Shown here in pieces: positions 9,043 to 46,638 of a DNA stretch of 64,000 nucleotides. How positions within the stretch are numbered: the stretch's first letter is position 1; every line of letters begins with the position of its first letter. A program made the position numbers and the translations under genes. Below the pieces are notes generated by a model, which made no database searches, was not told the origin of the DNA, and saw only the letters and a program-made list of their open reading frames with translations. This DNA comes from Labrys okinawensis (lineage in GTDB: Bacteria > Pseudomonadota > Alphaproteobacteria > Rhizobiales > Labraceae): NCBI RefSeq assembly GCF_002982075.1, contig NZ_PUEJ01000001.1, positions 620,001 to 684,000 of the forward strand, given 5' to 3'.

Positions 9043-11463
9043 ATGCGTAGCCATGCCCAGGCCGTCGTGATCGGCGGCGGTTTGATCGGTTGCTCGATCC
9101 TCTATCACCTCGCCAAGCTCGGCTGGACCGATGTCGTCCTGCTGGAGCGGGACGAACTCACCTCGGGATCGACCTGGCATGCAGCCGCCAATATCCATGG
9201 CCTGCACGATTCCACCAATATCAGCCGCCTGCAGCACTACACCATGGCGCTCTACAAGGAGCTGGAGGCCGAGACCGGGCAGGGCTGCGGCATCTTCCAG
9301 CCCGGCTCCCTCTATCTGGCCCAGACCGGCGAGCGCGAGCACCAGTTGCGGCTGCAGGAAGCCAAGGCGCGACGCTACGGCATGAACTTCTATGAGGTCT
9401 CGCGCAAAGAGGCCGAAAAACTGCACCCGCTCGTGGATTTCTCGGGCATACGCTGCATCATGTTCGAGCCTGAAGGCGGCAATGTCGATCCTTCGGGCGT
9501 GACGGCAGCCTATGCCGCCGGGGCGCGTCAGCGCGGCGCCGAGATCCATCGCTTCACGCCGGTCACGGGCACCGAGGCACAGCCCGACGGAAGCTGGATC
9601 GTGCGCACCCCGAAAGGCGATATCCGCACCCGATGGATCGTCAACGCCGCCGGCCTATGGGCCCGCGAGGTGGCGGCCATGGCCGGGCTGACACTACCGC
9701 TGATGCCGACCGAGCATCAATATTTCGTCACGCAAACCATCCCCGAGATCGCCGCGCTCGATCGGCGCCTGCCCTCGGTCGCCGACCGCGATGGCGAATA
9801 CTACCTGCGCCAGGAAGGCCTCGGCCTGCTGGTCGGCGCCTATGAGCGCGACATGCGGTTCTGGGCCGAGGACGGCACGCCTGCAAATTTCGGCCATGAG
9901 CTCTTTCCCGACGACCTCGCCCGCATCGAGGACAATATGATGCGGGCGATCGAACGGGTGCCGGTGCTCGGCTCCGCCGGCATCCGGCGGGTGATCAACG
10001 GCCCGATGATCTGGTCGCCCGACAGCGCCGTGCTGTTCGGCCCGGTGCCGGAAATGAAGAATTATTTCTGCTGCAACGGCATCATTCCCGGGTTCTCCCA
10101 GTCGGGCGGCATGGGCAAGCTCGCCGCGGAGTGGATGATCGAGGGCGAACCCTCGCTCGACATGTTCGCCTGGGACCTCGCGCGTTTCGGCGCCTGGGCC
10201 GACAAGGCGTTCACCAAGGCCCGGGTGCGCGATCAATATGGCCATCGCTTCAAGATCCACTTCCCCAATGAGGAGCGCAGCGCCGGCCGGCCCGTACGCA
10301 CGCGTCCCGCCTATGCGATGCAGCAGGACATGGGCGCCGTCTTCGGCCTGAATTTCGGCTGGGAGCATCCGCTGTGGTTCGCCGCCGAGGGCGAGCCTGG
10401 GGAGGAGACGGCCGGCTTCGCCCGCCAGAACTGGTGGGAGCCGGTGGGACGGGAAGCCCGCATGCTGCGCGAGCATGCCGGCATCATCGACATCTCCAAT
10501 TTCGCCAAATATGAGGTTACGGGACCAGGCGCCCAGGCCTGGCTCGACGCCCTGTTCGCCAATCGCATGCCGGACCGGACCGGCCAGATCCGCCTCACCC
10601 CCCTGATCGGCCGGCGAGGCGGCGTTGCCGGCGACTTCACGGTCGCCAAGCTCGCCGATGACAACTACATGGTCTTCGGTTCCGGCATGGCGGAGCGCTA
10701 TCACCAGCGCTTCTTCAATGCGGTGCCGCTGCCGGAGGGAACCCTGTTTCGCTCGGTGACGCAGGCGATGTGCGGCTTCAGCGTTGCCGGCCCGAAGGCG
10801 CGAATACTCCTGCAAAGCCTGACCTCCGAAGACCTTTCCAATAGCGCGTTCCCCTTCATGCAAGCACGCCATCTCAATCTGGCCAGCATCGAGGTGGTGG
10901 CCCTGCGGGTTTCCTTCACGGGCGATCTCGGCTGGGAGCTTCACTGCCAGGCCGCTGACCAGGAGCGGCTCTATCGCGCATTGCTCACGGCCGGAAAACA
11001 GATCGGAGCCGGCCCCGTCGGTGCGAGGGCGATGACGTCGCTGCGTATCGAGAAGGGCTATGGCAGCTGGGGGCGCGAATATTCGCCCGAATATTGGCCC
11101 CAGGAATCCGGCCTGGCCCGCCTCGTCAAGCTGGACAAGGGCGCCTTCCTCAATCGCGACGCCTATGCGGCCGTGGCCGGCAATCCGGCACGCGACCGGC
11201 TGGTCACGCTGGCGATCGAGGCCGAGGATGCCGATGCCACCGGCGGCGAACCGATCTTCCTGCCCGATGGCACTCCGCTCGGGCAGGTTACCTCAGGCAG
11301 CTACGGCTACTGGGTCGGCCAGTCACTGGCCCTCGCTTATGTCAAGGCCGATCTGGCCAGGCCCGGCGATATCGTGTCGGTGGCCATATTGGGCATCCCG
11401 CGCGAGGCACGTATTCTCGCCGAGCCCGCCTTCGACCCGGGCGGCGAGCGCCTGAGAAGCTGA
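9043..11463 (+). CDS. FAD-dependent dimethylglycine/sarcosine dehydrogenase-like protein with GcvT domain
   Basis: 806 residues. The N-terminal DAO domain starts with the dinucleotide fold (VVIGGGLIGCSILYHLA, residues 8-24). STWHAAA has His46 at the place where dimethylglycine and sarcosine dehydrogenases bind FAD covalently. A middle FAO_M segment follows at about residues 370-420. The C-terminal half (about 430-795) is an aminomethyltransferase (GcvT) domain that transfers the oxidised one-carbon unit to tetrahydrofolate. Length and domain order match the family. It most likely demethylates dimethylglycine, sarcosine or a similar N-methyl compound downstream of the MttB-like step. The substrate is inferred, not seen. 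Confidence 0.88.
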   Translation: MRSHAQAVVIGGGLIGCSILYHLAKLGWTDVVLLERDELTSGSTWHAAANIHGLHDSTNISRLQHYTMALYKELEAETGQGCGIFQPGSLYLAQTGEREHQLRLQEAKARRYGMNFYEVSRKEAEKLHPLVDFSGIRCIMFEPEGGNVDPSGVTAAYAAGARQRGAEIHRFTPVTGTEAQPDGSWIVRTPKGDIRTRWIVNAAGLWAREVAAMAGLTLPLMPTEHQYFVTQTIPEIAALDRRLPSVADRDGEYYLRQEGLGLLVGAYERDMRFWAEDGTPANFGHELFPDDLARIEDNMMRAIERVPVLGSAGIRRVINGPMIWSPDSAVLFGPVPEMKNYFCCNGIIPGFSQSGGMGKLAAEWMIEGEPSLDMFAWDLARFGAWADKAFTKARVRDQYGHRFKIHFPNEERSAGRPVRTRPAYAMQQDMGAVFGLNFGWEHPLWFAAEGEPGEETAGFARQNWWEPVGREARMLREHAGIIDISNFAKYEVTGPGAQAWLDALFANRMPDRTGQIRLTPLIGRRGGVAGDFTVAKLADDNYMVFGSGMAERYHQRFFNAVPLPEGTLFRSVTQAMCGFSVAGPKARILLQSLTSEDLSNSAFPFMQARHLNLASIEVVALRVSFTGDLGWELHCQAADQERLYRALLTAGKQIGAGPVGARAMTSLRIEKGYGSWGREYSPEYWPQESGLARLVKLDKGAFLNRDAYAAVAGNPARDRLVTLAIEAEDADATGGEPIFLPDGTPLGQVTSGSYGYWVGQSLALAYVKADLARPGDIVSVAILGIPREARILAEPAFDPGGERLRS

Positions 11464-13582: not shown

Positions 13583-13662
13583 TGGAAACCTCACCGGGCG
13601 CGGCAATGCCGCGCCCTACGGGTTGCAGATGGAAAAGGCGGGCGAGACGAAGAGCTCCTCCC

Positions 13663-14079
13663 TCAGGCGAGGGAAAGCTCGACATTGATATTGCCGCGCG
13701 TCGCCTTCGAATAGGGGCAGGTCTGGTGGGCTTCCTCGACGATCGCCTGTGCGAGCTCGCGATCGAGGCCGGGCAGGCTGACCTTCAGGCGCGCCTGCAG
13801 GAAATAGGCGCCATCGGTGGTGCCGAGATCGACCTCCGTGTCCACGGCCGTGTCGGTCGGCAGCTTCAGCTTGCGCTTGCCGGCTGCGAGGCCCATGGCG
13901 CCGATGAAGCAGGCCGACCAGCCTGCCGCGAACAGCTGCTCGGGATTGGTGCCAGGCTGGCTGCTGCCGGGCGGCGACAGCTTGATGTCGAGCCGGGCAT
14001 CGTCGCTGCGCGCAGCCCCATCCCGGCCACCGGTGGTGTGGGTCCGGCCTGTATAGAGAACCTTGTCGATCTTGGTCAT
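13663..14079 (-). CDS. ohr: Organic hydroperoxide resistance protein (Ohr/OsmC family peroxiredoxin)
   Basis: 138 residues, the full family length. The two redox cysteines are C57 (AAGWSACFIGAM) and C121 (QTCPYSKATRGN), with the supporting R19 and E47. The N-terminal phrase KVLYTGRTHTTGGRDG is typical of Ohr and not of OsmC. The enzyme reduces fatty-acid and organic hydroperoxides with lipoamide as electron donor. No ohrR (MarR) gene is next to it, which is unusual. It lies upstream of the lipoprotein, DyP and encapsulin genes on the same strand, making this an oxidative-stress neighbourhood. Confidence 0.93.
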   Translation of the reverse strand: MTKIDKVLYTGRTHTTGGRDGAARSDDARLDIKLSPPGSSQPGTNPEQLFAAGWSACFIGAMGLAAGKRKLKLPTDTAVDTEVDLGTTDGAYFLQARLKVSLPGLDRELAQAIVEEAHQTCPYSKATRGNINVELSLA

Positions 14080-14398
14080 GATACGCTCCTGTTCGTCTGG
14101 AGGCTGTCATGATCCATAACAGCCTCTGGGGTTGGCGATACCGCCATCTGCGGCATCGGAAAGACCGGAGTGTCTTGAAGGGAGCGTTTGTCCGCCATGT
14201 TTCCGAAAACCCCGGAAGTGTAACAAAGCGTAGCTTCCGGCGAGATCGACATGTTGGCATACCACGACGGCGGAAAATCGCGGCTGGCTCGGAGCGCCAC
14301 GGGCCGACCCCGCCAACAAAAGGCGCAGCATTACGGTGAGGAGAAACACGTTCTCCCGATCGATACACCGCGAATGTCTTCAGAAAAACCTCGGGCCT
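14080..14398. other. Intergenic region upstream of ohr
   Basis: 319 bases between the ohr start and the end of the histidine kinase gene, both on the minus strand. It should hold the ohr promoter. A short imperfect dyad, TTTCCG...CGGAA, occurs around 14198-14216, but it does not match the OhrR operators I know. No gene, RNA or terminator was recognised. Confidence 0.4.
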
Positions 14399-15712
14399 TC
14401 ACCGAATGGCGACTTCCGCCACCAGTCCCCCGCCGTCGCGGTTGTAGAGCCGGACCGTGCCACCGATGGTCCCTGCCAGTTGCTGGGCAATGGCAAGGCC
14501 GAGGCCCGTGCCGCCGGTCTCGCGATTGCGGGATTGCTCCAGGCGGAAGAAGGGCTGCATGGCCGCCTTCAGCATGTCTTCGGGTATGCCGGGGCCGCGA
14601 TCCATCACCGCGATGACGGTCCGGCCATCGGCTTTGCGCTCCACGCCCACCTCGGCGGCACCGGCGAATTTCAGCGCATTGTCGATGAAGTTCGAGAGAA
14701 TGCGCCGCAGCGCATGCGGCTTGGTCGAGGCGACGCCGTCGACATAACCGATGACGCTCACCGCCTTGCCGGTATCCTGATAGTCATAGGCGATGCTGTC
14801 GATGAAGGAGGCGAGGTCGATGCGGGCCGCCTTCTCGCCACTGCTGTGGGAGCTGCGGGCATAGGCGATGCCGTCCTGGACCAGGCGCTCGATCTCGCGC
14901 AGGTCTCGTACCAGCTTGTCCTTCTCCGGCGATTCATCGGCCATGTCGGCCCTGAGCCGCATGCGGGTGATCGGCGTTTGCAGGTCGTGCGAGATCGCGG
15001 CGAGAATCTGGACGCGTTCCTCCAGATAATGGGCGATGCGCTCGCGCATCCCGTTGAAGGCGCGGGCCGCATGGGCAACCTCGCTCGGGCCTTCCTCGCT
15101 GAGTGGTGCGCTCTTGCCGTTGGGATCGAGGGCCTCGGCGGCGGCGGCGAGAGCCCCGAGGGGCCGGATTGCCTGCCTGACGGCGAGCCAGGTACAGAGC
15201 AGCAGCAACGCCATCTGCAGGGCGAGGACGTAAGGCAGCCAGTCCGCGATCGGCATGACCCCGCGCGGCGTGATCTCGATGGTCAGCGGGCTGCCGTCGC
15301 TCAGGGTGAGATGGGCCTGCAGGCGCCCGCCCTCCCCCGGTATGGCTTCGATGCGCAGGGGGAAACGGGACCCTGCCGCGCTCTCCAGCTTGGCGGCGAT
15401 CTCCTGGCCATGCCGGGAGGTGTTGGGCACACCGGCAAGGCCCGGCCCCAGAATGATGTTGTAATTGCCGCGGCTCAGCCAATCGGCCAGTTTCGGCCTC
15501 TCGCTCGCCGGCGTCCGGTCGAGAACCGCGATCGAGGTTGCCACATCGTCTTTCAACGTGCGCAGCATCATCTCCTTCGCCGATAAGTAGCGTTCGGCAG
15601 AAAGGACCGCGAAGGACAGGCCATTGGCGATCGCCAGCCCGGCGAGCAGGATCAGGAACAGCCGGGCGCGAAGGGTCGTCGGCCACAAGGCACGAAAGGC
15701 GCCGGCGATCAC
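14399..15712 (-). CDS. Sensor histidine kinase (OmpR-system partner)
   Basis: 437 residues when started at the GTG at 15712, which overlaps the response-regulator stop as GTGA. The frame is open further upstream but only antisense-like sequence lies there. Domains in order: N-terminal membrane segment (LRARLFLILLAGLAIANGL), periplasmic region, second membrane segment near VLALQMALLLLCTWLAV, HAMP, HisKA with the phospho-acceptor His in ISHDLQTPITRMRL, and the HATPase with N box (NFIDNALKFA), G1 (DRGPGIP) and G2 (GGTGLGLAI). It phosphorylates the regulator just upstream. The signal is unknown. Confidence 0.92.
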   Translation of the reverse strand: MIAGAFRALWPTTLRARLFLILLAGLAIANGLSFAVLSAERYLSAKEMMLRTLKDDVATSIAVLDRTPASERPKLADWLSRGNYNIILGPGLAGVPNTSRHGQEIAAKLESAAGSRFPLRIEAIPGEGGRLQAHLTLSDGSPLTIEITPRGVMPIADWLPYVLALQMALLLLCTWLAVRQAIRPLGALAAAAEALDPNGKSAPLSEEGPSEVAHAARAFNGMRERIAHYLEERVQILAAISHDLQTPITRMRLRADMADESPEKDKLVRDLREIERLVQDGIAYARSSHSSGEKAARIDLASFIDSIAYDYQDTGKAVSVIGYVDGVASTKPHALRRILSNFIDNALKFAGAAEVGVERKADGRTVIAVMDRGPGIPEDMLKAAMQPFFRLEQSRNRETGGTGLGLAIAQQLAGTIGGTVRLYNRDGGGLVAEVAIR

Positions 15713-16449
15713 GTCCGGGGCTCCGAGATCTCGACGGGAACGGCGAGAACATAGCCTTCGCTGCGCACGGTCTTGATGTAGGTCGGCTCGCGGGCGTCGT
15801 CGCCGAGTCGCTGGCGCAGGCGGCTGACCAGAAGATCGATCGAGCGGTCGAACAGGTCCGCATCCCGTCCCTGGGTGAGGTTCAGGAGCTGGTCGCGGTT
15901 GAGCACGCGCTGGGGGTGATCGATGAAAACGCGCAGCAGCCGGTATTCGGCCCCGCTCAGTGCCACCTCCGTGCCCTGCCCGTCGAGGAGATGGCGGCCC
16001 ACCGTGTCGAGCCGCCATTCACCGAAGGTCAGCAGCTGGCCGGCCTCGCTGATCTGCAGATTGGGCGGCAGCATCCGGGTTCGCCGCAGGACGGCGTTGA
16101 TGCGCGCCAGCAACTCGCGGGCGGCAAAGGGCTTCGGCAGATAGTCGTCTGCGCCCATTTCCAGCCCGATGATCCGGTCCATCTCGTCGCTGCGGGCCGT
16201 CAGCATGAGGATCGGCGTCGCCTTGTGTTTTCCGGCCCGCAATTCGCGGCAGAGCACGAGGCCGTCCTGGCCCGGCATCATCACGTCGAGTACGATCAGG
16301 TCGACGGTATTGGCCTCGAGGAAGCTGCGCATCTGGCGTCCATCGGCAGCGACCGAGGCGCGAAGACCGTTTTTCTTCAGATAGCTCGACACCAGGTCGC
16401 GAATTTCGCTGTCGTCATCGACGATCAGTATGTGGTCGACATGTTCCAT
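15709..16449 (-). CDS. OmpR-family response regulator
   Basis: 246 residues. The receiver domain has the acidic pocket D11-D13, phospho-acceptor D55 (IVLDVMMPG), T84-region LTARS and the conserved Lys in LPKPF. The C-terminal winged-helix Trans_reg_C domain covers about residues 145-240 (LSGAEYRLLRVFIDHPQRVLNRDQLL). It overlaps the downstream kinase gene by 4 bases and diverges from the DipZ gene. A 9-bp dyad 40 bases upstream of its start (16489-16514) is a candidate autoregulatory site. Confidence 0.93.
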   Translation of the reverse strand: MEHVDHILIVDDDSEIRDLVSSYLKKNGLRASVAADGRQMRSFLEANTVDLIVLDVMMPGQDGLVLCRELRAGKHKATPILMLTARSDEMDRIIGLEMGADDYLPKPFAARELLARINAVLRRTRMLPPNLQISEAGQLLTFGEWRLDTVGRHLLDGQGTEVALSGAEYRLLRVFIDHPQRVLNRDQLLNLTQGRDADLFDRSIDLLVSRLRQRLGDDAREPTYIKTVRSEGYVLAVPVEISEPRT

Positions 16450-16961
16450 GCCCGAACTTCCTGCTTCCGCCGGTCAACTGATACCTGCACTCGAATGTGC
16501 CGATGCATTCGAGTCTGGCTATTACATTGCAATGCCGTGCCTTGCGAGCAATGCGCGTTTTGGTGAAGGCTCGTATTGCTCCAGCCCACCGGTTTCTGGC
16601 GAGGCAGTCGAATCGCAAGAAGGGTTTCGCCTGCTGAAAGCCCCACCCGATGCGCAGAAGCAGGGCCCACGGCACCGGACGGAACTAGACCAGCGCGATG
16701 TATCCTGGATATGTCCCACGCCGGCGCCTCCTGCATATGGATGTAGGATCCGGCGGGCACGGATACGTTGCGATACAATCGGAGCCCTTTTGGCGGCGCC
16801 TGACTTTTGAGCCCTCGCGTCGCCGCCGGGCCGGCGCCTACACTGCGGTACAAACGCCCACGGCTCCGGACACATTCACGATACTCGCGCACGCCACATC
16901 AGCCTCCTTGCTCGGCGGGCCTCCTCGCCCCCCGACCGCTCCCTCCGTTGCACAGGAGACA
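16450..16961. other. 512-base divergent intergenic region between the response regulator and DipZ
   Basis: It contains the dyad at 16489-16514. It also holds one TGTATC (16699-16704) and one GATACA (16772-16777), the same hexamers that are over-represented at 28837-28996. The frame of the DipZ gene is open from 16698, but that stretch is Arg-rich and lacks family similarity, so I treat it as non-coding promoter and leader sequence. Confidence 0.45.
16489..16514. promoter_or_regulatory. 9-bp inverted repeat, candidate operator of the two-component system
   Basis: ACTCGAATG (16489-16497) and CATTCGAGT (16506-16514) are perfect reverse complements separated by 8 bases. The site lies 40 bases upstream of the response-regulator start in the divergent region shared with DipZ. 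An OmpR-type regulator usually binds direct repeats, so this could equally belong to another regulator. Confidence 0.4.
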
Positions 16962-18737
16962 ATGATGCTTCTTCTAGCCATTGCCTATTTCGGCGGCGTG
17001 CTGACCATTCTCAGCCCCTGCATCCTGCCCATTCTCCCTTTCGTCTTCGTCGGAACAGGGCTGCCTTTCCTGCGCGGCACGCTGCCCATGCTCTTCGGCA
17101 TGGCCTTTACCTTCGCGCTGGTAGCGACCCTGGCCGCCGTCGGCGGGAGCTGGGCCATCCAGGCCAATGAGTTCGGGCGCCTGGCTGCGCTCGCGCTTCT
17201 GGCCATATTCGGCCTGAGCCTGATCTCGCCGCGCCTCGCCGGTGCTGTCACCCGGCCGATTGCCGACCTCGGCAACCGGCTGCACGGCACCTCGGCCGCC
17301 TCGGGAGCCCGGACGGCCGGCAGTTCGTTCATCCTCGGCGTGGCAACGGGCCTGCTCTGGGCGCCCTGCGCCGGGCCGATTCTCGGCCTGGTCCTGACCG
17401 GCGCGGCTCTTCAGGGTGCCAATATCGAGACGACGCTGCTGCTGCTCGCCTATGCCGGCGGCGCCGCCACCTCGCTGGCCGGCGCCCTCCTGGTGGGCGG
17501 CAGGCTCCTTGCAGGCATGAAACGTTCGCTCGGCGTCAGCGAGCGTATCCGCCAGGGTCTCGGCGTAGCCGTGCTCGCCGGTGTCGGCACCGTTGCTTTC
17601 GGCCTGGACACCGGCCTGCTGGCGCGGCTCTCCTATGCCAGCACGGCGAGCATCGAGCAGGCCATTCTCGACAGGCTGCATGTGGACCCGCAAACGGCCA
17701 TGGCGTCTGGTCTCGCCAGCGGCGGCATGCTGATCGCGAGCGCCAAGGCACAGACGCCCTTCCGCAGCAATCTCCCCGTCGAGGGCCAGGCTCCCTCGCT
17801 CGACGGCGCCGTCGCCTGGCTGAATTCGCCCCCGCTCACCACGGAGCAACTGCGCGGCAAGGTGGTGCTCGTCGATTTCTGGACTTATTCCTGCATCAAC
17901 TGCATCCGCACCACCCCCTATATCCGCGCTTGGGCGGACAGATACAGGGATCAGGGGCTGGTCGTGATCGGTGTGCACGCACCCGAATTCGCCTTCGAAA
18001 AGAAGCTCGACAATGTCAGGCAGGCGGTCAAGGATTTCGGCATCGTGTATCCGGTAGCCGTCGATAACGATTATCGCATCTGGCGCGCCTTCCAGAACAG
18101 CTATTGGCCAGCCTTCTACCTGATCGATGCCCGCGGCCAGATCCGCTACCACAATTTCGGCGAGGGCAATTACCGCCAGACCGAACAGGCGATCCAGGAT
18201 CTGCTGCGGGAAGCCGGCAGTAGCGGGCCGGCGAAAGAGGCGGCCGCCCCGGCGGCGAAGGGGGCGGAAGCCAGTCCCGACCTCGCCAATCTCGGTTCGC
18301 AGGAGACTTATCTGGGCTATGGCCGGGCCGACAATTTCGCCTCGGCGGAGCGCGTGTCGCCTGACGCGGCCCGAGACTATTCGGTGACGGATCCCGGGCT
18401 CAATCAATGGGGCCTTCAGGGCACCTGGACCGTCGGCGCAGAACGGGCGGTGCTCGACAAGCCGGGAGGCGGCATCGTCTACCGCTTCAGCGCCCGTGAC
18501 CTGCATCTGGTGCTGGGCCCCGGTGCTGCCGGCAAGCCCGTGCGCTTCCAGGTCACCGTCGACGGCAAGGCGCCCGGCCCCGACCACGGGGCCGATATCG
18601 ATGCCCAGGGAAACGGCCTGGTCACCGAAACGCGGCTCTACCAGCTCGTGCGGCAGTCCGGAGGAGTGGAGACCCGGACTTTCGAGGTCCGCTTTCTCGA
18701 CCCGGGTGTCGAGGCCTATGCCTTCACCTTCGGATGA
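16962..18737 (+). CDS. DipZ-type thiol-disulfide transport protein: CcdA membrane domain, thioredoxin domain and C-terminal domain
   Basis: 591 residues from the ATG at 16962, which has CAGGAG six bases upstream. The N-terminal CcdA-like domain (about residues 1-235) has its two redox cysteines in ILSPCILPILPF (C20) and LLWAPCAGPILG. A periplasmic thioredoxin-like domain follows, with active site CINC (WTYSCINCIRTTPY). The last ~150 residues form the beta-rich C-terminal domain seen in DipZ proteins. It would pass reducing power from cytoplasmic thioredoxin across the membrane to periplasmic proteins. It is divergent from the two-component system and may be its target. Confidence 0.92.
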   Translation: MMLLLAIAYFGGVLTILSPCILPILPFVFVGTGLPFLRGTLPMLFGMAFTFALVATLAAVGGSWAIQANEFGRLAALALLAIFGLSLISPRLAGAVTRPIADLGNRLHGTSAASGARTAGSSFILGVATGLLWAPCAGPILGLVLTGAALQGANIETTLLLLAYAGGAATSLAGALLVGGRLLAGMKRSLGVSERIRQGLGVAVLAGVGTVAFGLDTGLLARLSYASTASIEQAILDRLHVDPQTAMASGLASGGMLIASAKAQTPFRSNLPVEGQAPSLDGAVAWLNSPPLTTEQLRGKVVLVDFWTYSCINCIRTTPYIRAWADRYRDQGLVVIGVHAPEFAFEKKLDNVRQAVKDFGIVYPVAVDNDYRIWRAFQNSYWPAFYLIDARGQIRYHNFGEGNYRQTEQAIQDLLREAGSSGPAKEAAAPAAKGAEASPDLANLGSQETYLGYGRADNFASAERVSPDAARDYSVTDPGLNQWGLQGTWTVGAERAVLDKPGGGIVYRFSARDLHLVLGPGAAGKPVRFQVTVDGKAPGPDHGADIDAQGNGLVTETRLYQLVRQSGGVETRTFEVRFLDPGVEAYAFTFG

Positions 18738-18849
18738 CCGCCTTCCGCTTCAGTCGCCATCCGCCGTCCGGACGCGCTGTTCCACGTCCCGATACGGGGT
18801 GACGCCGACGCGACGGCAAAAGCGGGGCTTCCCTTCAAAATTTTTCTTG

Positions 18850-18869
18850 AACATCCGTTCCCGAATGTT
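18850..18869. promoter_or_regulatory. Candidate TetR operator palindrome
   Basis: AACATCCG (18850-18857) and CGAATGTT (18862-18869) form an inverted repeat with one mismatch and a 4-base centre. It lies 12 bases ahead of the TetR start codon, where autoregulatory TetR operators are commonly found. The motif AACATTCG resembles sites of TetR regulators paired with oxidoreductases. A second copy was not found before the oxidoreductase gene. Confidence 0.5.
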
Positions 18870-18881
18870 TAAAGGATCGAC

Positions 18882-19448
18882 ATGGCAAGATTGCGGGAAT
18901 TCGATACCGACGCCGCGCTGGACGCAGCGATCGGCGTGTTCAGGGAACATGGGTTCGAAGGCAGTTCGGCCCAGATGCTCGTGGATGCCATGGGTATCGG
19001 CCGGCAAAGCCTCTATGCTGCCTTCGGCGACAAGTGGCAGCTCTATTGTTCGGCCGTGCGCCGCTATGGGTTGGGAGAATGCTCTGCCCATTTCGATGCC
19101 CTGCGCAGTGGCGCGCGCGGCATGGATGGCATCAAGGCGATGCTGCGCCGGGTGGTCAATACGGCCGATCAGGCCTGTCTCGGCACCGGTTCGGTCTGCG
19201 AGTTCGGTGCGTCCCGCGCCGATCTCGCCGAGATCAATGCATCGCTGGCCCGTAGCCTGAGCGGCGCCATTGCCGGCCGGGTGCGGGACGCCCAGCGCGA
19301 GGGCGACGTCGCCGCCGACCTCGATCCGGAAAGGACGGCCGAATTTCTGATCGCCAGCATCTCCGGCATACGCATTGCCGGGCGCAGTGGCGCCGACCGT
19401 CGGATTCTGGCCAGCCTGGCCGAAATGGCCTTGAGGGCCTTGCATTAG
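18882..19448 (+). CDS. TetR/AcrR family transcriptional repressor
   Basis: 188 residues. The HTH spans roughly residues 10-55 (AIGVFREHGFEGSSAQMLVDAMGIGRQSLYAAFGDK), and the rest is the helical ligand-binding domain with a C-terminal TetR_C segment. GGATC precedes the ATG, and a near-palindromic operator overlaps the leader. The quinone oxidoreductase gene starts 48 bases downstream on the same strand, so they are likely one transcript. The regulator probably responds to an electrophile or quinone removed by that enzyme, which is inference from similar pairs. Confidence 0.9.
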   Translation: MARLREFDTDAALDAAIGVFREHGFEGSSAQMLVDAMGIGRQSLYAAFGDKWQLYCSAVRRYGLGECSAHFDALRSGARGMDGIKAMLRRVVNTADQACLGTGSVCEFGASRADLAEINASLARSLSGAIAGRVRDAQREGDVAADLDPERTAEFLIASISGIRIAGRSGADRRILASLAEMALRALH

Positions 19449-19496
19449 ATTTTTTTGCTGAATTCAGGAACGATCATTCAACATTGGAGACAGGTA

Positions 19497-20465
19497 ATGA
19501 AAGCCATCGTCATGAACGGAATCGGCGGAAGCGACAGGCTGTGCCATGTCGAGCGCGCTGAGCCGGTGCCCGGTCCCGGTGAAGTCCTGGTCGAGGTCGC
19601 CTTTGCCGGCGTCAATTTCATGGATATCGGCGTCAGGCAGGGCATGGCTTGGACCGAGATGCCTAATCCGAAGATTCTCGGTGTGGAAGGGGCAGGCCGC
19701 GTCCTCGCACGAGGTGACGGCGTCGAGGAGTTCAAGCCCGGTCAGCGCGTCGCCTGGGTCTACGCCCCAGGCAGCTATGCGGAACGGATCGCCATCCCCT
19801 CCCGTGCGCTGGTGCCTGTGCCCGACGCCATCGATGACCGGACGGCCGCCTCGATCATGATGCAGGGTCTTACGGCCAGTCACTTCGCCACCGACTTCTA
19901 TCCGGTTCAGCCCGGCGACATCGCCTTCGTCCACGCGGCGGCCGGGGGCGTGGGGTTGCTGCTGACCCAGATCGTCAAGCTGCGGGGCGGCCAGGTCATC
20001 GGGCGGGTTTCGACGCCGGACAAGGTGGCCATGGCGAAGGCGGCCGGCGCCGACCATGTCATCGTCGATGCCGAAGGGCGGTTTGCCGAGGACGTCCTGC
20101 GCCTGACCAGGGGGGAAGGCGTCTCTGTCGTCTATGACGGCTCCGGCCCTGCCACCTTCCAAGGTTCGCTCGACATCTTGCGCCGGTCCGGCACGTTCTG
20201 CTGGTATGGCCCGGTTCTGGGCGGCCCGGGCCCACTCGACATCATGAACCTGCCGAGGAGCATCAAGATCGGCTACGCAGTCTTTTTCGATCATATCCAT
20301 ACGCCCGAACTGCTGCGCATGCGCTCGGCCCGACTGTTCGACTGGCTGGCCGAGGGCAAGCTCGCGATTCGGATCGGCGGCGAATATCGATTGGCGGACG
20401 CAGCCAAAGCCCATGCGGACATGGAAAGCCGCAGGACCACCGGCAAGCTGCTGCTCGTCCCCTGA
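19497..20465 (+). CDS. NADPH:quinone oxidoreductase-like MDR protein
   Basis: 322 residues from ATG 19497 with GGAGACAGG as ribosome site; an upstream start at 19455 is less likely. It has the medium-chain dehydrogenase/reductase layout: an N-terminal GroES-like domain (ILGVEGAGRV) and a Rossmann domain with the NADPH motif (HAAAGGVGLLLTQIVKLRGGQ). The zinc-binding cysteines of alcohol dehydrogenases are absent, as in quinone oxidoreductases. It reduces quinones or enones in the cytoplasm using NADPH. It is paired with the preceding TetR gene. Confidence 0.88.
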   Translation: MKAIVMNGIGGSDRLCHVERAEPVPGPGEVLVEVAFAGVNFMDIGVRQGMAWTEMPNPKILGVEGAGRVLARGDGVEEFKPGQRVAWVYAPGSYAERIAIPSRALVPVPDAIDDRTAASIMMQGLTASHFATDFYPVQPGDIAFVHAAAGGVGLLLTQIVKLRGGQVIGRVSTPDKVAMAKAAGADHVIVDAEGRFAEDVLRLTRGEGVSVVYDGSGPATFQGSLDILRRSGTFCWYGPVLGGPGPLDIMNLPRSIKIGYAVFFDHIHTPELLRMRSARLFDWLAEGKLAIRIGGEYRLADAAKAHADMESRRTTGKLLLVP

Positions 20466-35718: not shown

Positions 35719-36006
35719 ATGGCCGCTATCGATCCCCTCACCGCCGGCGCCGTGCTGCTGGCAACCGCCGCCACGGATGCGGTGTATGTCATGTTCACCG
35801 CTGCGGTTGTGGCGCGCAAGCGCGTCCCGGCCGCGACCTGGAGCAGTGTCTGGTATCTGCTGTCGTCCTATGCCGTCATCAGCTACACCGAAAACTGGAT
35901 CTATGTCGCCTTTGCCGCGCTGGGGTCATGGCTCGGCGCCTATGCCTCGATTACCTTCCTGCACCGCCCACCCGGCGGACCACCGATCGGCGCGGCACCG
36001 GACTAG
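35719..36006 (+). CDS. Small conserved-looking membrane protein of unknown function
   Basis: 95 residues with three hydrophobic stretches: TAGAVLLATAATDAVYVMFTAAV, VWYLLSSYAVISY and WIYVAFAALGSWLGAYASI. Glu57 in ISYTENW lies between the last two. AGAAGGTGCA precedes the ATG. I recognise similar short proteins in Rhizobiales genomes but no named function. It could be considered as an immunity protein for the downstream microcin-like system because it is small and membrane-bound, but it is 558 bases away and separately composed, so this is weak. Confidence 0.6.
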   Translation: MAAIDPLTAGAVLLATAATDAVYVMFTAAVVARKRVPAATWSSVWYLLSSYAVISYTENWIYVAFAALGSWLGAYASITFLHRPPGGPPIGAAPD

Positions 36007-36179
36007 AGCGATAGTCGACTGCGGAGCATCGAATATCGCTCATGATTTCAAAAAGATAGACGCGTTTTTCGGTCCGATTGTATCGGGAAAGGCTGCGGGA
36101 ATTGCAACCTCGGATCTGGTTACGAGGCATGCGAGAGCCATCGGAATCTTGCGAACACGGGCCGAGTCTTGCCGTGGAA

Positions 36180-36214
36180 GGCACCCGCGGCGAGATCCGG
36201 TTCTCGCGGGTGCC
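36180..36214. repeat. Strong inverted repeat upstream of the microcin-like locus
   Basis: GGCACCCGCG (36180-36189) and CGCGGGTGCC (36205-36214) are perfect complements with a 15-base loop. The alternative pairing GGCACCC/GGGTGCC plus GCGAGA/TCTCGC leaves a 3-base bulge. No T-run follows. It could be the 3' end signal of the preceding small gene, a protein-binding dyad, or a boundary element of the locus. Confidence 0.6.
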
Positions 36215-36489
36215 AGGCATCGGTGTTTGGCAGTGGGCGCGGCAGCCCGTCCAGGTCGTCGATCGCGACGCGGCGAAACCGGAATGCTTCCGGATCCTGC
36301 ACGTCGGATGAGGAGGCGGGACGGCTTCCATTGGCCATCACCCTGCCGATCCTGCCGAACGCTTTCCAACGTTATCCCCCGCATCTGTTCGCGCTGCCTC
36401 GCCGCGTGAATTTATAGTTCTCTTAGAGGAAAGATATCGAATACTTTCTAATATAGAGAAGAGATTTATTGTAATTTTGGAGAATCAGG

Positions 36490-36521
36490 TTGACATGATT
36501 AATTTTGAGTGATGATCTATT
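36490..36521 (+). promoter_or_regulatory. Candidate promoter of the double-glycine peptide gene
   Basis: A perfect TTGACA stands at 36490-36495 within the AT-rich stretch. A -10 box is not clear-cut: TCTATT at 36516-36521 matches four of six positions but needs a 20-base spacer, longer than ideal. The TTG start codon of the precursor is 43 bases further on. The call is based on the consensus -35 and the local composition only. Confidence 0.3.
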
Positions 36522-36563
36522 GAAGTCGTGACTGCCTTTCATACCAACAAAGGAGTGTATGCC

Positions 36564-36812
36564 TTGTCAAATCTACAAACTCATACCCCTGTTCTTGGAG
36601 AAGCAGAGCTTCGCCTGCTCGACAGCAATGAAATCGACGCCGTAGCAGGCGGCGCAACCTATGACGAGGCCTGGGCGAACTTCGTAGCCGGCGGCGCTGC
36701 GATCGGCGCGGGCGCTGCCCAGTTGGTTGCCTCCGCCTGGACGGGCATTGCGTTGACACCCGGCCTCATCCTGGGATCGTCCGGCCTTGGCGGCATTGGC
36801 AAGATCAGCTGA
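36564..36812 (+). CDS. Double-glycine leader peptide: microcin V-type / glycine-zipper secreted peptide precursor
   Basis: 82 residues from a TTG at 36564, chosen because AAAGGAG lies 8 bases upstream; no ATG is available in frame at that distance. The leader is 30 residues and ends LLDSNEIDAVAGG. This fits the C39-processing consensus at -12 Leu, -7 Ile, -4 Val and Gly-Gly at -2/-1. The 52-residue core begins ATYDEAWANF and is then very Gly/Ala-rich, with GxxxG motifs (GGAAIGAG, GLILG) and the end GLGGIGKIS. It has no cysteine. The following CvaA- and CvaB-like genes supply export and cleavage. It is probably an unmodified class II microcin or a CdzC/D-like contact toxin. No immunity gene is recognised. 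Confidence 0.82.
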   Translation: MSNLQTHTPVLGEAELRLLDSNEIDAVAGGATYDEAWANFVAGGAAIGAGAAQLVASAWTGIALTPGLILGSSGLGGIGKIS

Positions 36813-36865
36813 AGCCAGCTTCATCACCGAAGGCTTGCCAGCGTTGAACCTGGAATGACAATCGA

Positions 36866-36890
36866 GGCCAGAGCGCGTTCAGCTCTGGCC
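36866..36890 (+). terminator. Hairpin between precursor and exporter genes (attenuator/partial terminator or processing site)
   Basis: GGCCAGAGC (36866-36874) and GCTCTGGCC (36882-36890) form a perfect 9-bp stem with a 7-base loop, 54 bases after the precursor stop and 38 before the exporter start. The following bases (GCCTTCGTCC) are only weakly T-rich. Such a structure between a bacteriocin gene and its exporter would let the short peptide mRNA accumulate above the transporter mRNA. Confidence 0.6.
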
Positions 36891-36927
36891 GCCTTCGTCC
36901 GCCCTTCAGTTCAGGGGGTCGCCTTTC

Positions 36928-38220
36928 TTGGCCCGCTCTCTCGACAAGCTGTTCAGACGCGAGGTGCAGGAAGCTCGCTCGCTGGCATGGCTCGGGCGTC
37001 CCGTGCTGCCTCCCGCTCGATTAATGCGTGGCGCGGCGATTATGGCGATCATTCTGATCGGCCTGTTCTGTCTCTTCATCGTTTTCGGCAGCTATACCCG
37101 ACGTGTGCGCGTTCAGGGCGTGGTGCTGCCGACGGAGGGCGTCACACGTATCATCGCCCCGGTGCAGGGCTGGATCAGCAACCAGAAAGTGAAGGAAGGC
37201 GATAGCATCCGGCAGGGGGACGTCCTCTATACGATCACCCTCGAGCGTACGACCTCGCTTGGAAGCACCGAGGGCGCCGTCGTCGATCTGCTCAGACGCC
37301 AGCATATGACGCTCAAGGCCGATCTCAGGCGACAGGACGCCATCGATCGAAGCCGCAGGGAAAGCCTGCAGGCGCAGCAAGCCGTCTTGACGCGCGAAGC
37401 TGAACAGATCTCCAACCAGATCGCGATCGCCCAACAGAACACCGATACCTTCAAGGAAATGACGGCCCAGCGCAAAGACTATCTCTCGCGCGGAATCTCG
37501 ACCTTGAATAATTTCCAGGCACTGCTGCAGAGCTACATGAACCAGCAGACGCAATTGGAGCAACTCAAACGCGAGCGCGTTCAGATCGATGCAAAGCTCG
37601 CGGACATTCGCGATCAGCTTTCTTCATTCGACCTGCACGCCGCCGCTGAGCGCAGCAAGCTGCAGCAGCAGGTCATCGGCGTCGAACGGCAGATCGCCGA
37701 GGACGAAGCCCAACGCGAAATCGTCGTCACGGCACCTCGCAGCGGCAAGGCGACCTCGATCATCACCCAGCTTGGCCAGACCGTGGCCGCCGGCACGCCG
37801 CTTCTTTCGATTCTTCCGGAAGGAATGCCCTCGGAGGCTCAATTGCTGGCGCCGACGAGTGCCATCGGCTTCGTCCAGAAAGGCAATCGCGTGCTGTTGC
37901 GCTATGCGGCGTTTCCCTATCAGAAGTTCTGTCAATTTCCCGGGACGATTTCGTTGATCTCGCGAGTCACCCTGCGCCCCGAGGAAGTTTCGCAGTTCTT
38001 TTCAGGCGGGTCCGAGAAGTATCAGGGCCAATCCTTCTATCGCGTGACCGTGCGCCCGGATCAGGACTATGTGCTCGCCTATGGCAAGCGCGAGCCCCTC
38101 CAGATCGGCATGCAGCTCGAGGCCGACCTGCTGGCCGACAGCCGCCCGCTTTATCAATGGGCGCTGGAGCCCCTCTATGGCCTGCGCGGGAGCTTCATTT
38201 CAACGGGAACCGGATCTTGA
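36928..38220 (+). CDS. CvaA/HlyD-type membrane fusion protein of a type I peptide exporter
   Basis: 430 residues from TTG 36928 (MARSLDKLFRREVQEARSLAW), with AGGGGG upstream. One membrane segment near residues 36-52 (IMAIILIGLFCLFIVFG) is followed by GSYTRRVRVQGVV. Two lipoyl-like half-motifs (VQGWISNQKVKEGDSIRQGD and the later VVTAPRSGKATSIITQLGQ) flank a coiled coil at about residues 105-260. The C-terminal region (LLRYAAFPYQKFCQFPG and YQWALEPLYGL) closely parallels colicin V exporter CvaA. It bridges the inner-membrane ABC protein to a TolC-type outer-membrane channel, which is not encoded here. It overlaps the next gene by 4 bases. Confidence 0.9.
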   Translation: MARSLDKLFRREVQEARSLAWLGRPVLPPARLMRGAAIMAIILIGLFCLFIVFGSYTRRVRVQGVVLPTEGVTRIIAPVQGWISNQKVKEGDSIRQGDVLYTITLERTTSLGSTEGAVVDLLRRQHMTLKADLRRQDAIDRSRRESLQAQQAVLTREAEQISNQIAIAQQNTDTFKEMTAQRKDYLSRGISTLNNFQALLQSYMNQQTQLEQLKRERVQIDAKLADIRDQLSSFDLHAAAERSKLQQQVIGVERQIAEDEAQREIVVTAPRSGKATSIITQLGQTVAAGTPLLSILPEGMPSEAQLLAPTSAIGFVQKGNRVLLRYAAFPYQKFCQFPGTISLISRVTLRPEEVSQFFSGGSEKYQGQSFYRVTVRPDQDYVLAYGKREPLQIGMQLEADLLADSRPLYQWALEPLYGLRGSFISTGTGS

Positions 38221-40400
38221 GCAGCGTAAACACCTTCTCACGCCTGCTCGAACAAATGGCCGGCAATCTGCGCTCGAAGACGCCGGTCGTCATCCAGACG
38301 GAGACTGCCGAATGCGGCCTGGCGAGCCTGGCCATGATAGCGGGACATTACGGTCACCCCATCGACCTCACGGCCATGCGCCGTCGCTTCACCGCCTCGC
38401 TCAAAGGGATGACCTTGCGCGACCTCATCCAGCTCAGCGATGGCATGCGCCTGACCACCCGCGCGCTGCGTCTCGACCTTGCGGGCCTGAGGCAACTACG
38501 CCTGCCTTGCATCCTGCACTGGGACCATGCGCATTTCGTGGTGCTGACGAAGGTCGGGCACAACAGCGTGACAATTCACGATCCTGCGGTGGGACGGCGA
38601 ACGATACCGCTCGCCACGGTCTCGGATCATTTCACGGGGGTCGCACTGGAAGCCTGGCCGGCCGAGAAGTTCGAACGCAAGACGGAACGCGTCGGCATCA
38701 ATCTCTTCGACATGGTCCGGCGTACCGTCGGCATTCGCCGGGCTATGGCGCAGGCCATGGCCGTGTCACTACTCCTGGAGGCGGTAATCATTGCCATGCC
38801 GATCGCCTTCCAGCTCGTGGTCGACGAGGTCGTAGTCGCCAACGATACCGACTTGCTCGTTCTCGTCGTTTTCGCGCTCGGCCTGCTGTTGCTCGCCAAG
38901 GTGGTCGCCACTTTCGTGCGATCCTGGTCTATGATGATCTTCGGTTCGAGTCTGGTGCTGCAATGGAAGGCCAGCCTGTTCGACAAGCTCATGCGCCTGC
39001 CGCTGGATTTTTTCGAGAAGCGCCATGTCGGTGACGTGGTCTCCCGCTTCAGTTCGCTGGACACGATTCAGAATACCGTCACCACCAAGTCAATCGGCAT
39101 CCTGTTCGACGGCGTAATGTCGCTGGCGCTGGTTGCCATGATGTTCATCTATGGCGGCCCATTGGTGCTGATCGCGGTCGCTGCCACCGCGCTCTACACG
39201 ACCCTGCGCCAGGCAAGTCTATCGCATTATCGCGCCCTCTCCGAGGAGGCGATCGTCCATCAGGCAAAGGAAAACTCGCATTTCATGGAAAGTGCGCGCG
39301 GGATCGCCAGCCTCAAGGTGCTCAACCTCGAACAGCGGCGAAGAGGCGTATGGCTCAACCATCTGGCAGACCGGGTCGGCGCTCAGCTCCGCATCGAGAA
39401 ATTCAACATCGTCTTCTCGGCAGCCTCCCAATTGCTGGCCGGCGCGGATCGCATCCTCCTGATCTATCTCGGCACCAGGGCGATCTTCGCCGGGGACATG
39501 ACCGTGGGCATGCTGATCGCCTTTCTTGCCTACAAGGACCAGTTTACCGAGCGGGCGAATGGCTTCGTCGATACGCTGATGTCGATGCGGATGCTGAGCC
39601 TGCATGGCGAGCGCATCGCCGACATCGCACTCGCCAGAACCGAGGACGAGGGCCTTGCCCCGCCGGTACGGCACGCCGACGAGGTCCATCCGAGCGCCCT
39701 GTCGGTTCGCGGCGTCCACTTCCGTTATGCTGACAACGAGCCTTACGTCCTCAAGGATCTGAGCTTCGATATCCAGGCAGGCGAATGCATCGGCATTGTC
39801 GGTCCATCCGGTGTCGGAAAGTCCACCCTTTTGAAGATCATGGCAGGCTTGATCAGCCCCAGCGAAGGACAGGTCCTTGCCGACGGCGTTCCAATCCAGG
39901 CCGCGGGCCTGGCCGCCTATCGCGACCGCGTCGGCTGCGTGCTGCAGGAGGATTGCCTGTTCGCCGGCTCGATCGCCGACAATATCAGCGCATTCGATCC
40001 GGCCATGAACCCCTTGCATGTGCAGGCGTGCGCCCGAATGGCAGCGGTCCATGATGAGATCGTTCGCATGCCCATGGGCTATGAAACCCTCGTCGGTGAC
40101 ATGGGCAACGCATTTTCGGGAGGGCAGCGCCAAAGGCTCATCCTGGCGCGTGCACTTTACCGCAATCCCAGGATTCTTTTCCTGGATGAGGCGACAAGCC
40201 ATCTCGACTCGGAAAACGAAGCGTTGATCAATGCCGCTATCCGGCATTTATCCATCACCCGCGTGATCGTTGCCCATCGCGCCTCCAGCCTTCTTCCCGC
40301 CGATCGCATCCTCGACCTCACGCCAGGCAGGCGGCTCTTTCAAGAAGCGATCGCAAACCAAGCTCCGGCGCCTCGTCACGTGGAGCATCCGCGTCCTTGA
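38217..40400 (+). CDS. CvaB-type peptidase-containing ABC transporter (C39 peptidase, membrane domain, ATPase)
   Basis: 727 residues if the TTG at 38217 (TTGA overlap) is used; ATG 38256 is the alternative. The N-terminal C39 domain keeps oxyanion Q27, nucleophile C33 (QTETAECGLASLAMI), H106 (HWDHAHFVVL) and D122 (HDPAVGRR), so leader cleavage should be active. The ABC membrane domain spans about residues 165-440. The nucleotide-binding domain has Walker A GPSGVGKST, signature FSGGQRQRL and Walker B ILFLDEATSHLDSENE. Similarity to colicin V exporter CvaB is strong at the N-terminus. It cleaves the precursor after Gly-Gly and exports the core across both membranes with the CvaA-like partner. 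Confidence 0.93.
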   Translation: MSSVNTFSRLLEQMAGNLRSKTPVVIQTETAECGLASLAMIAGHYGHPIDLTAMRRRFTASLKGMTLRDLIQLSDGMRLTTRALRLDLAGLRQLRLPCILHWDHAHFVVLTKVGHNSVTIHDPAVGRRTIPLATVSDHFTGVALEAWPAEKFERKTERVGINLFDMVRRTVGIRRAMAQAMAVSLLLEAVIIAMPIAFQLVVDEVVVANDTDLLVLVVFALGLLLLAKVVATFVRSWSMMIFGSSLVLQWKASLFDKLMRLPLDFFEKRHVGDVVSRFSSLDTIQNTVTTKSIGILFDGVMSLALVAMMFIYGGPLVLIAVAATALYTTLRQASLSHYRALSEEAIVHQAKENSHFMESARGIASLKVLNLEQRRRGVWLNHLADRVGAQLRIEKFNIVFSAASQLLAGADRILLIYLGTRAIFAGDMTVGMLIAFLAYKDQFTERANGFVDTLMSMRMLSLHGERIADIALARTEDEGLAPPVRHADEVHPSALSVRGVHFRYADNEPYVLKDLSFDIQAGECIGIVGPSGVGKSTLLKIMAGLISPSEGQVLADGVPIQAAGLAAYRDRVGCVLQEDCLFAGSIADNISAFDPAMNPLHVQACARMAAVHDEIVRMPMGYETLVGDMGNAFSGGQRQRLILARALYRNPRILFLDEATSHLDSENEALINAAIRHLSITRVIVAHRASSLLPADRILDLTPGRRLFQEAIANQAPAPRHVEHPRP

Positions 40401-40412
40401 TCCGTATCAAGG
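40395..40412. promoter_or_regulatory. FixK/FNR-type box upstream of ackA
   Basis: TTGAT-CCGT-ATCAA is a perfect FNR/FixK palindrome at 40397-40410, extended to CCTTGAT...ATCAAGG at 40395-40412. It overlaps the last codons of the CvaB-like gene and lies 237 bases before the ackA start. It would place ackA under oxygen-limited activation. A box this far upstream implies a long leader, or a promoter near 40450. Confidence 0.75.
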
Positions 40413-40648
40413 CTGACCGAGGGGGCTCGACTAGAGTCGGCCCGCGGTCACGGAGCAGGCGGACATTCTGGCCGCGCCGGGGCCCGAAGCCGGGAACATC
40501 GCGGCCAGGCAACTCATTTACCGAAGGGCAGACGTGACGGGTCGCACCCCCGGCCGCATGCCCATCATTTCCGCCGGCAGACGGACGCCGTCGACGTCAT
40601 CCTGCCTCATCGTGCGTGCAAACTGACGGCCCAAGGAAAGTCCTCTCG

Positions 40649-45036: not shown

Positions 45037-46638
45037 ATGCCTGCCTCTCTCTATAGAGGAAATCCCTCGCGGAGGCCGGACGTGGTCGAACCATTGCAGC
45101 ATGGGTCTGTCCCAGACCAGGAGGATCGTGCGATCCGAACGGGCCTCGCTTGCACGGGCATCGGCACCTGGACTTTCGAGATTGCCTCCCAGACCCTGAA
45201 GGTGTCGGAGACGACCCGCGTGCTTCTCGGATATGGGGCCGATCAGCCACTCGACTACCGCACCTTCCTCTCATTGCTCGATCCCGGGGACGTCGAGGTG
45301 GCGACCGCGGCCCTGAATGCCTCGATTACATCCGGTGCCGCCTTCGACATTGCCTGCCGCGTCAGCGCTGCGAGCAAAGCCAGCCATTGGTTGCGGCTTC
45401 GCGGAGGCGTCCTGACAGCGGAGGACGGCGCGCCCGTCTGCCTGGGCGGCATCGTGATCGACATCGACGAGGAAAAGCGGCTGGAAGAAGCGGTGCGCAC
45501 GCGCGAGGAGCATCTCCGCTCGATCCTCGAGACGGTTCCCGATGCCATGGTCGTCATCGACGAGGCCGGCATCATGCAATATTTCAGCCGGGCTGCGGAG
45601 AGGCTGTTTGGATATGCCGGCTCGGCAGCCATTGGCCAGAACGTCAAGCTGCTGATGCCGGAGCCCGACCGCTCGCGGCATGACGGCTATCTGCATCGCT
45701 ATCAGGATACCGGCCACCGCCACATCATCGGCATTGGCCGCATCGTCACCGGCAAGCGCGAGGATGGTTCCACCTTTCCGATGCATCTGTCGGTCGGCGA
45801 GATGCAGTCGGGCGGGCGCCGCTACTTCACCGGCTTCGTGCGGGACCTGACGGAATATCAGCAGACGCAGGCCCGCCTTTCCGAACTGCAGTCGGAGCTG
45901 GTTCATATGTCTCGGCTGAGCGCCATGGGAGAAATGGCGTCCGCTCTCGCCCATGAACTCAACCAGCCCCTGGCGGCGATCAGCAACTATCTCAAGGGCT
46001 CGCGACGCTTGCTGAGCGCCTCCAACCTGGAGGGCCTCGACAGGATCGAAACCGCGCTGGACCAGGCTGCGGAGCAGGCGCTGCGGGCCGGGCAGATCAT
46101 CCGGCGCCTGCGCAGTTTCGTGACCAGAAGCGAGACCGAAAAAAGGATCGAGAGCATCGCCAAGCTCGTGGAGGAGGCGGGGGCGCTCGGCCTTGTCGGC
46201 GCCCGCGAGCAGGGAATCGTCCTGCGTTTCGATCTCGATCCTTCCTGCGACCTCGTTCTGGCGGACCGGGTCCAGATCCAGCAGGTCCTGGTGAACCTCT
46301 TCCGCAATGCGCTCGAGGCCATGCAAGGGTCCGCGCGACGCGAGCTGACGGTCTCCAATGCCCCGATCGATGACGACATGATAGGCATCCGCGTCGAGGA
46401 TACCGGCCATGGTTTTGCCGACGACGTCCGGTCCAACCTGTTCCAGCCTTTCTTCACCACCAAGCAGACGGGAATGGGCGTCGGCCTTTCCATCAGCCGC
46501 TCCATCATCGAAGCCCATGGCGGGAAAATGTGGGCCGAAACCAATCGATCCGGCGGCGCCACATTCCACTTCTCGTTGCCAATCGGCACCCTCGCCGACC
46601 CCCAGAACTTGCCAGAGACGTCTTCCGATGCCGATTAA
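45037..46638 (+). CDS. fixL: Oxygen-sensing heme-PAS histidine kinase FixL
   Basis: 533 residues from ATG 45037; a GTG at 45082 has a better ribosome site (GGAGG) and may be the true start. Domains: PAS at about 35-145, heme-PAS at about 160-275, HisKA with phospho-acceptor H306 (ALAHELNQP), and the HATPase with DTGHGF and GMGVGLSIS. The heme pocket is intact: H215 (proximal ligand, Bradyrhizobium H200), R221 (R206), H229 (H214) and R235 (R220), all offset by 15. No membrane segments, so it is a soluble FixL as in Bradyrhizobium. Deoxy-heme triggers autophosphorylation and transfer to FixJ. It overlaps fixJ by 11 bases. Confidence 0.96.

Follow-up and report, generated by a model that had tools for sequence, protein, structure and literature searches.

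The 64,000-nucleotide stretch of DNA from the soil bacterium Labrys okinawensis analysed here (contig NZ_PUEJ01000001.1, positions 620,001 to 684,000; hereafter the window) carries three adjacent genes on its forward strand, encoding a small peptide precursor with a double-glycine (GG) leader, a HlyD/CvaA-like periplasmic adaptor and an ATP-binding cassette (ABC) exporter with a C39 peptidase domain. What sets this cassette apart is that, as judged by homology, the same cargo lies beside a C39-free exporter in relatives. We read the locus as a GG-peptide export cassette whose cargo family appears also to use a second type I route, of the C39-free PrtD type, and assign this reading a probability of roughly 0.7.

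The precursor open reading frame (ORF; 36564-36812, forward strand) encodes 82 amino acids, a 30-residue leader (LSNLQTHTPVLGEAELRLLDSNEIDAVAGG) followed by a 52-residue core free of cysteine (ATYDEAWANFVAGGAAIGAGAAQLVASAWTGIALTPGLILGSSGLGGIGKIS), just as a sequence-only reading of this DNA had described it. The start codon is TTG, behind a good Shine-Dalgarno sequence; longer in-frame GTG starts exist and overlap or precede that sequence. The leader ends in ELRLLDSNEIDAVAGG and fits the consensus L(-12)xxxE(-8)L(-7)xxxxG(-2)G(-1) taken from the PCAT1-substrate structure (PMC6959990); position -7 is occupied by Ile and position -4 by Val. A strict form of the leader pattern matched once in the window, at the precursor ORF, and never in 10 shuffles of the window; it was absent from 158 kb of control loci, compared with 18 matches in 263 kb around the other C39 exporters of the order. 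A genome-wide search with a short leader profile, of which the window's own leader formed part, returned no second convincing GG leader. Together with the homology of the core (see below), these leader statistics ruled out a chance ORF.

The core has a calculated mass of 4874.5 Da and is hydrophobic (grand average of hydropathy, GRAVY, 0.81), with Gly, Ala, Val and Ile making up 58% of its residues. The earlier description of a Gly/Ala-rich core with GxxxG motifs was accurate in that two such motifs are present, but this number is no more than expected from composition (mean 1.97 in composition shuffles). The single formal glycine-zipper match, ALTPGLILG, contains a proline and compares with a shuffle mean of 1.16. 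As these counts lie at composition level, the glycine-zipper argument was dropped. The core gave no match in NCBIfam, and Pfam Bacteriocin_IIc (PF10439) scored 13.2 bits, below its cut-off of 27.1, in agreement with the view that it belongs to no known family.

Pfam identified C39 (9.8e-35), ABC_membrane and ABC_tran domains in the exporter, whose alignment with PCAT1 and ComA runs nearly from end to end. The catalytic Gln and the Cys/His/Asp triad are all in place (Table 1). The earlier assignment of the two larger genes as CvaA-like and CvaB-like with an intact C39 triad holds. This exporter is the sole C39 match in the 6.5-Mb genome, and a type I TolC homologue over the curated cut-off is encoded elsewhere in it (G000:C18). 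The locus thus has both sequence hallmarks of a C39/PCAT (peptidase-containing ABC transporter) GG peptide, namely the leader motif and a linked exporter with the triad. The domain order, triad, leader consensus and CvaA-type adaptor are shared with the systems of CvaB, PCAT1 and ComA, from which the cassette differs in its unrelated cargo and in having no linked immunity gene.

Relatives of the core beside C39-free exporters

The sequence-only reading had proposed searching the core by BLASTP and profile methods; this gave no microcin or bacteriocin family match, and it did find relatives in Labrys and Mesorhizobium. The search covered 60 relatives first and then genome contigs. The homologues are proteins of 81-85 amino acids in Labrys KNU-23, Labrys WJW, Mesorhizobium 1M-11 and Mesorhizobium IRAMC:0171 (sister proteins from here on). 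BLASTP aligned the precursor with them at 58-60% identity over residues 28/29-72 (44-45 amino acids, E 3e-12 to 3e-17), and none of them has a double-glycine leader. Identical residues number 0-2/27 in the leader, 25-26/41 in the core and 0-1/10 in the tail, so the homology begins at the predicted cleavage site. The Smith-Waterman alignment scored 143, whereas none of 2000 shuffles exceeded 60 (z 21), and the conserved block reads T[YF]D[DE]A[WY].NF..GG..[IL]G.GAA.LV.SAWTG.ALTP.L.L.S. Changes among the sister genes fall mostly at third codon positions, with a ratio of nonsynonymous to synonymous substitution rates (dN/dS) of about 0.07-0.08 within each pair; these are real genes under purifying selection.

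The leader profile search found no convincing GG leader in KNU-23 or WJW. Among 385 genomes sampled from the class and 398 from the phylum, the core was found only in its own genome and in Mesorhizobium G247, and no copies were found in plasmids, phages or viral contigs. Distant precursor matches to proteins of 400-1700 amino acids and to loci L005, L011, L014 and L015, most with E near 0.01, were rejected as chance resemblance between Gly-rich sequences.

In all four genomes the small gene is the first of an operon, with 200-255 bp between it and the ABC exporter gene downstream. The one exporter tested, that of IRAMC:0171, was assigned to the PrtD subfamily (TIGR01842, 623 bits, cut-off 510) and has no C39 match; it is followed by a type I adaptor (HlyD, over the cut-off of TIGR01843), an Ala/Gly-rich protein of ~400-480 amino acids and a glycine-repeat protein. 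Gene order is identical at the other three loci and the genes are recognisably the same. The Ala/Gly-rich large product (403-476 amino acids) looks secreted; in the sampled order it is confined to genomes with the small one (3/297), and it is absent from the window genome. The glycine-repeat proteins adjoining the operon have SVGGKAS-type repeats and an N-terminal hydrophobic segment and reach at least 1497 amino acids in KNU-23; the Mesorhizobium protein had no NCBIfam match. At 0.85-1.3 kb to the other side of the small gene an AraC-type regulator is encoded, co-oriented in Mesorhizobium but divergently transcribed in Labrys. Between the small gene and the ABC gene stand GC-rich hairpins of 12-13 bp (GCCGCUGCGAGG...CCUCGCAGCGGC), similar in Labrys and Mesorhizobium and stronger than the repeat at the equivalent place in the window. 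The sister loci thus resemble the cassette in cargo sequence, in the position of the small gene as the first before the exporter and in the GC-rich hairpin between them; they differ in having no GG leader, another C-terminal tail (-VH[IV]A) and an exporter without C39.

The last residues of the small protein are -VHIA or -VHVA; those of its operon's large product are -HHIA, -HHVA or -HHAA. Of the 759 long ORFs in the loci retrieved, only this large product (six copies, some loci being counted twice) and one other ORF have an H[AVI]A ending. This resemblance of the tails suggests that the small and large products share an uncleaved C-terminal type I signal.

No catalytic C39 exporter was found in KNU-23, WJW or IRAMC:0171; KNU-23 and WJW have only HlyB-type exporters, with Ser at the Cys position. 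In these two strains and a third Labrys (L122, L123, L124) an HlyB-type exporter with a degenerate C39-like domain adjoins large repetitive or surface-protein-like ORFs.

Related C39 exporters and the setting of the insert

At least one C39 exporter was detected at E 1e-8 or better in 50 of the 397 genomes of the order, and a majority of the 20 nearest loci have GG peptides encoded beside the exporter. The closest exporters overall (57-63% identical) lie on plasmids of Phyllobacterium, Paracoccus, Rhizobium and Agrobacterium, at loci with GG peptides of other kinds, several of which adjoin two-component genes. At the nearest exporter within the order (L095) the peptide passes the class IIb bacteriocin model TIGR03949. 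The GG peptides of these nearest exporters share the leader consensus of the window precursor and are dissimilar in the cores tested; six other GG-peptide cores (from loci of the order and from 1M-11) showed similarity to the window core not above that of shuffles. On the Paracoccus versutus plasmid pTAV3 at least 4-5 different GG-leader-like peptides surround one C39 exporter and a kinase/regulator pair (L148 1250-1966, 4539-4733). At L129, L130, L133 and L135-L138 a second ABC exporter gene directly follows the C39 exporter, an NHLP-like arrangement.

In Labrys sp. WJW (G002) CaxA/YedE/USP-like genes occupy the site of the cassette, between flanks (methyltransferase, LysR, a 95-residue membrane protein, acetate kinase, MgtC-like and further genes) that are kept at 87-98% protein identity, so the cassette is a strain-variable insert. 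Its GC content is ~0.60, compared with ~0.65 in the flanks and 0.45-0.49 in the AT-rich upstream region. A phage origin was rejected, as nothing worth following was matched in phages, PHROGs or viral contigs. The inverted repeat between the peptide and exporter genes is possibly an attenuator or processing hairpin; the folding energy of the gap between these genes is unremarkable (z -0.89). A promoter scan gave a result no better than shuffles. At the edge of the cassette (36152-36324) lies the remnant 3' end of a substrate-binding-protein-like gene, which is full length in WJW (L118 11085-12197, minus strand).

Table 1. Coordinates of the cassette features in the window and of selected features at the sister loci
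Sequence	Feature	Positions	Strand	Remarks
Window	Whole cassette	36325..40460	+	Replaces WJW genes between conserved flanks
Window	Shine-Dalgarno AAAGGAG	36549..36555	+	8 nt ahead of TTG start
Window	30-residue double-glycine leader	36564..36653	+	L-12, E-8, I-7, V-4, G-2, G-1; consensus from PMC6959990
Window	52-residue core (cargo) and stop	36654..36812	+	Precursor residues 32-72 homologous to GG-less PrtD-locus proteins
Window	Inverted repeat between peptide and exporter genes	36857..36899	+	Perfect 9-bp GC-rich core stem GGCCAGAGC/GCTCTGGCC
Window	HlyD/CvaA-like periplasmic adaptor, 430 aa	36928..38220	+	HlyD_3 1.5e-15
Window	C39 peptidase-containing ABC exporter (CvaB/PCAT type), 747 aa from first start codon	38157..40400	+	
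Window	C39 peptidase domain	38280..38666	+	Gln47, Cys53, His126, Asp142
L022	Glycine-repeat protein	13597-16001		
L027	Glycine-repeat protein	15643-20135		
L024/L025	Glycine-repeat proteins	15.3-16.3 kb		
L025	Sister-locus hairpin region	10169-10396		
L026	Sister-locus hairpin region	10166-10416		

Export of the cargo and its possible role

We regard the three genes as a probable self-contained cassette for peptide export. The leader would recruit the precursor to the C39 domain of the exporter, which would cut after Gly30, and the 52-residue core would then leave the cell by way of the exporter, the HlyD-like adaptor and a TolC-like channel whose gene lies elsewhere in the genome; cleavage at Gly30 followed by export is very likely. 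The core looks like portable cargo because close relatives of the strain carry it without the leader beside a different type of pump. It would then be a module independent of the leader, fitted with either a cleavable N-terminal or an uncleaved C-terminal type I signal. We give even odds to the proposal that one cargo is exported in these two formats, by an N-terminal GG leader and a C39 exporter or by a C-terminal signal and a PrtD-type exporter, and a limited literature search found no precedent for it. Because the core also occurs leaderless at a C39-free type I system, the meaning of the finding shifts from the one first given to it.

Several observations weigh against our interpretation. 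The GG-leader form is carried by one genome only, so that the leader swap rests on one event, and the C-terminal likeness between the small and large products of the sister loci covers a few residues only. Mesorhizobium 1M-11 has the GG-less form together with a separate true C39 exporter, its only one, near which an unrelated GG peptide is encoded (WSWGGAAAGGIGGYG...; L128 12326-12679, minus strand). AlphaFold models of the GG form and the sister form were uninformative at predicted local distance difference test (pLDDT) values of 48-50. Finally, no immunity gene was found anywhere in the insert.

As to function, the most likely role is that of a membrane-active peptide used against neighbours, which we put at slightly less than even odds. 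The hydrophobic Gly/Ala-rich core and the company of the exporter clade make antagonism plausible, and the lack of an immunity gene in the cassette weakens a toxin role. The 95-residue membrane protein encoded at 35719-36006 was considered as an immunity protein and rejected, as it is 98% conserved in a Labrys without the cassette.

Among other explanations, an ordinary class II bacteriocin or Cdz-like toxin, with the PrtD-locus proteins as leaderless relatives put to the same use, is a real possibility, if one we would not favour. The gene order of peptide, adaptor and exporter agrees with it, as do the hydrophobic Gly/Ala core and the class IIb match of the peptide at the nearest exporter of the order; it is opposed by the missing immunity gene, the missing family match and the chance-level zipper. 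Caulobacter CdzABCDI likewise combines an alphaproteobacterial type I exporter with small Gly/Ala-rich proteins whose leaders end in G[GAS], with TolC encoded elsewhere (PMC5380434). The published Cdz criteria are a length of 60-151 amino acids, such a leader, a type I exporter nearby and one or two zippers unbroken by proline or charge (PMC5380434). The window precursor agrees in size, leader and exporter and lacks an uninterrupted zipper, the only formal one containing proline and not rising above composition. Further differences are that there is a single peptide rather than two, that a CdzI-like gene is missing and that Gly, Ala, Val and Ile make up 58%, compared with the 75% reported for CdzC/D (PMC5380434). 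The label glycine-zipper peptide is therefore not supported. The label microcin V-like fared no better. A GG leader and a CvaA/CvaB-type exporter are shared with class II microcins of the MccV type, but the cassette has no immunity gene and no sequence match to them, it lies outside the Enterobacterales, and the closest exporters serve many unrelated GG peptides.

A structural, surface-coating or aggregating role of the core, at the sister loci in partnership with large secreted repeat proteins, is unlikely. There the small gene does stand ahead of a secreted-looking Ala/Gly protein of 403-476 amino acids and a Gly-repeat protein, but no comparable partner is encoded in the window cassette, and the large product is missing from this genome. 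Still more doubtful is a role in signalling to kin, in which the core, diffusible or at the surface, would be exported by C39 as in Gram-positive peptide signalling. A signal would account for a cassette without an immunity gene, and the closest exporters in Phyllobacterium, Paracoccus and Rhizobium adjoin histidine kinase/response regulator pairs; however, the cassette has no two-component pair, the nearby PAS kinase (45037-46638) is also present in Labrys without the cassette, and the long, hydrophobic (GRAVY 0.81), Gly/Ala-rich core differs from typical signals. In a last, improbable alternative the sister protein would not be cargo at all: it would assist or regulate the PrtD-type exporter, and a fragment of it, captured behind a GG leader, would have become the window precursor. 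The position of its gene directly upstream of the exporter is invariant in 4 genomes, but one would not expect the junction with a cytosolic accessory to fall precisely at a C39 cleavage site beside an intact exporter, and the sister protein has a tail like that of the large product of its operon.

If the cassette, read as a GG-peptide export system, does serve antagonism, bacteriocin-type peptides would extend to Labrys, a genus for which the papers searched included none on such peptides. Type I exporters are usually classed by signal: those with an active C39 domain take small cargo bearing a GG leader at its N terminus, and those lacking such a domain take large cargo whose signal is C-terminal (PMC8277102). 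A cargo family on both sides of the C39 divide would offer a matched pair for testing what the exporter reads. For annotation, GG-less relatives of a GG peptide may flag cargo that leader-based searches miss. Should the two-format proposal be true, type I export signals would be interchangeable tags, and by acquiring or losing a leader a cargo could pass from one class of exporter to the other.

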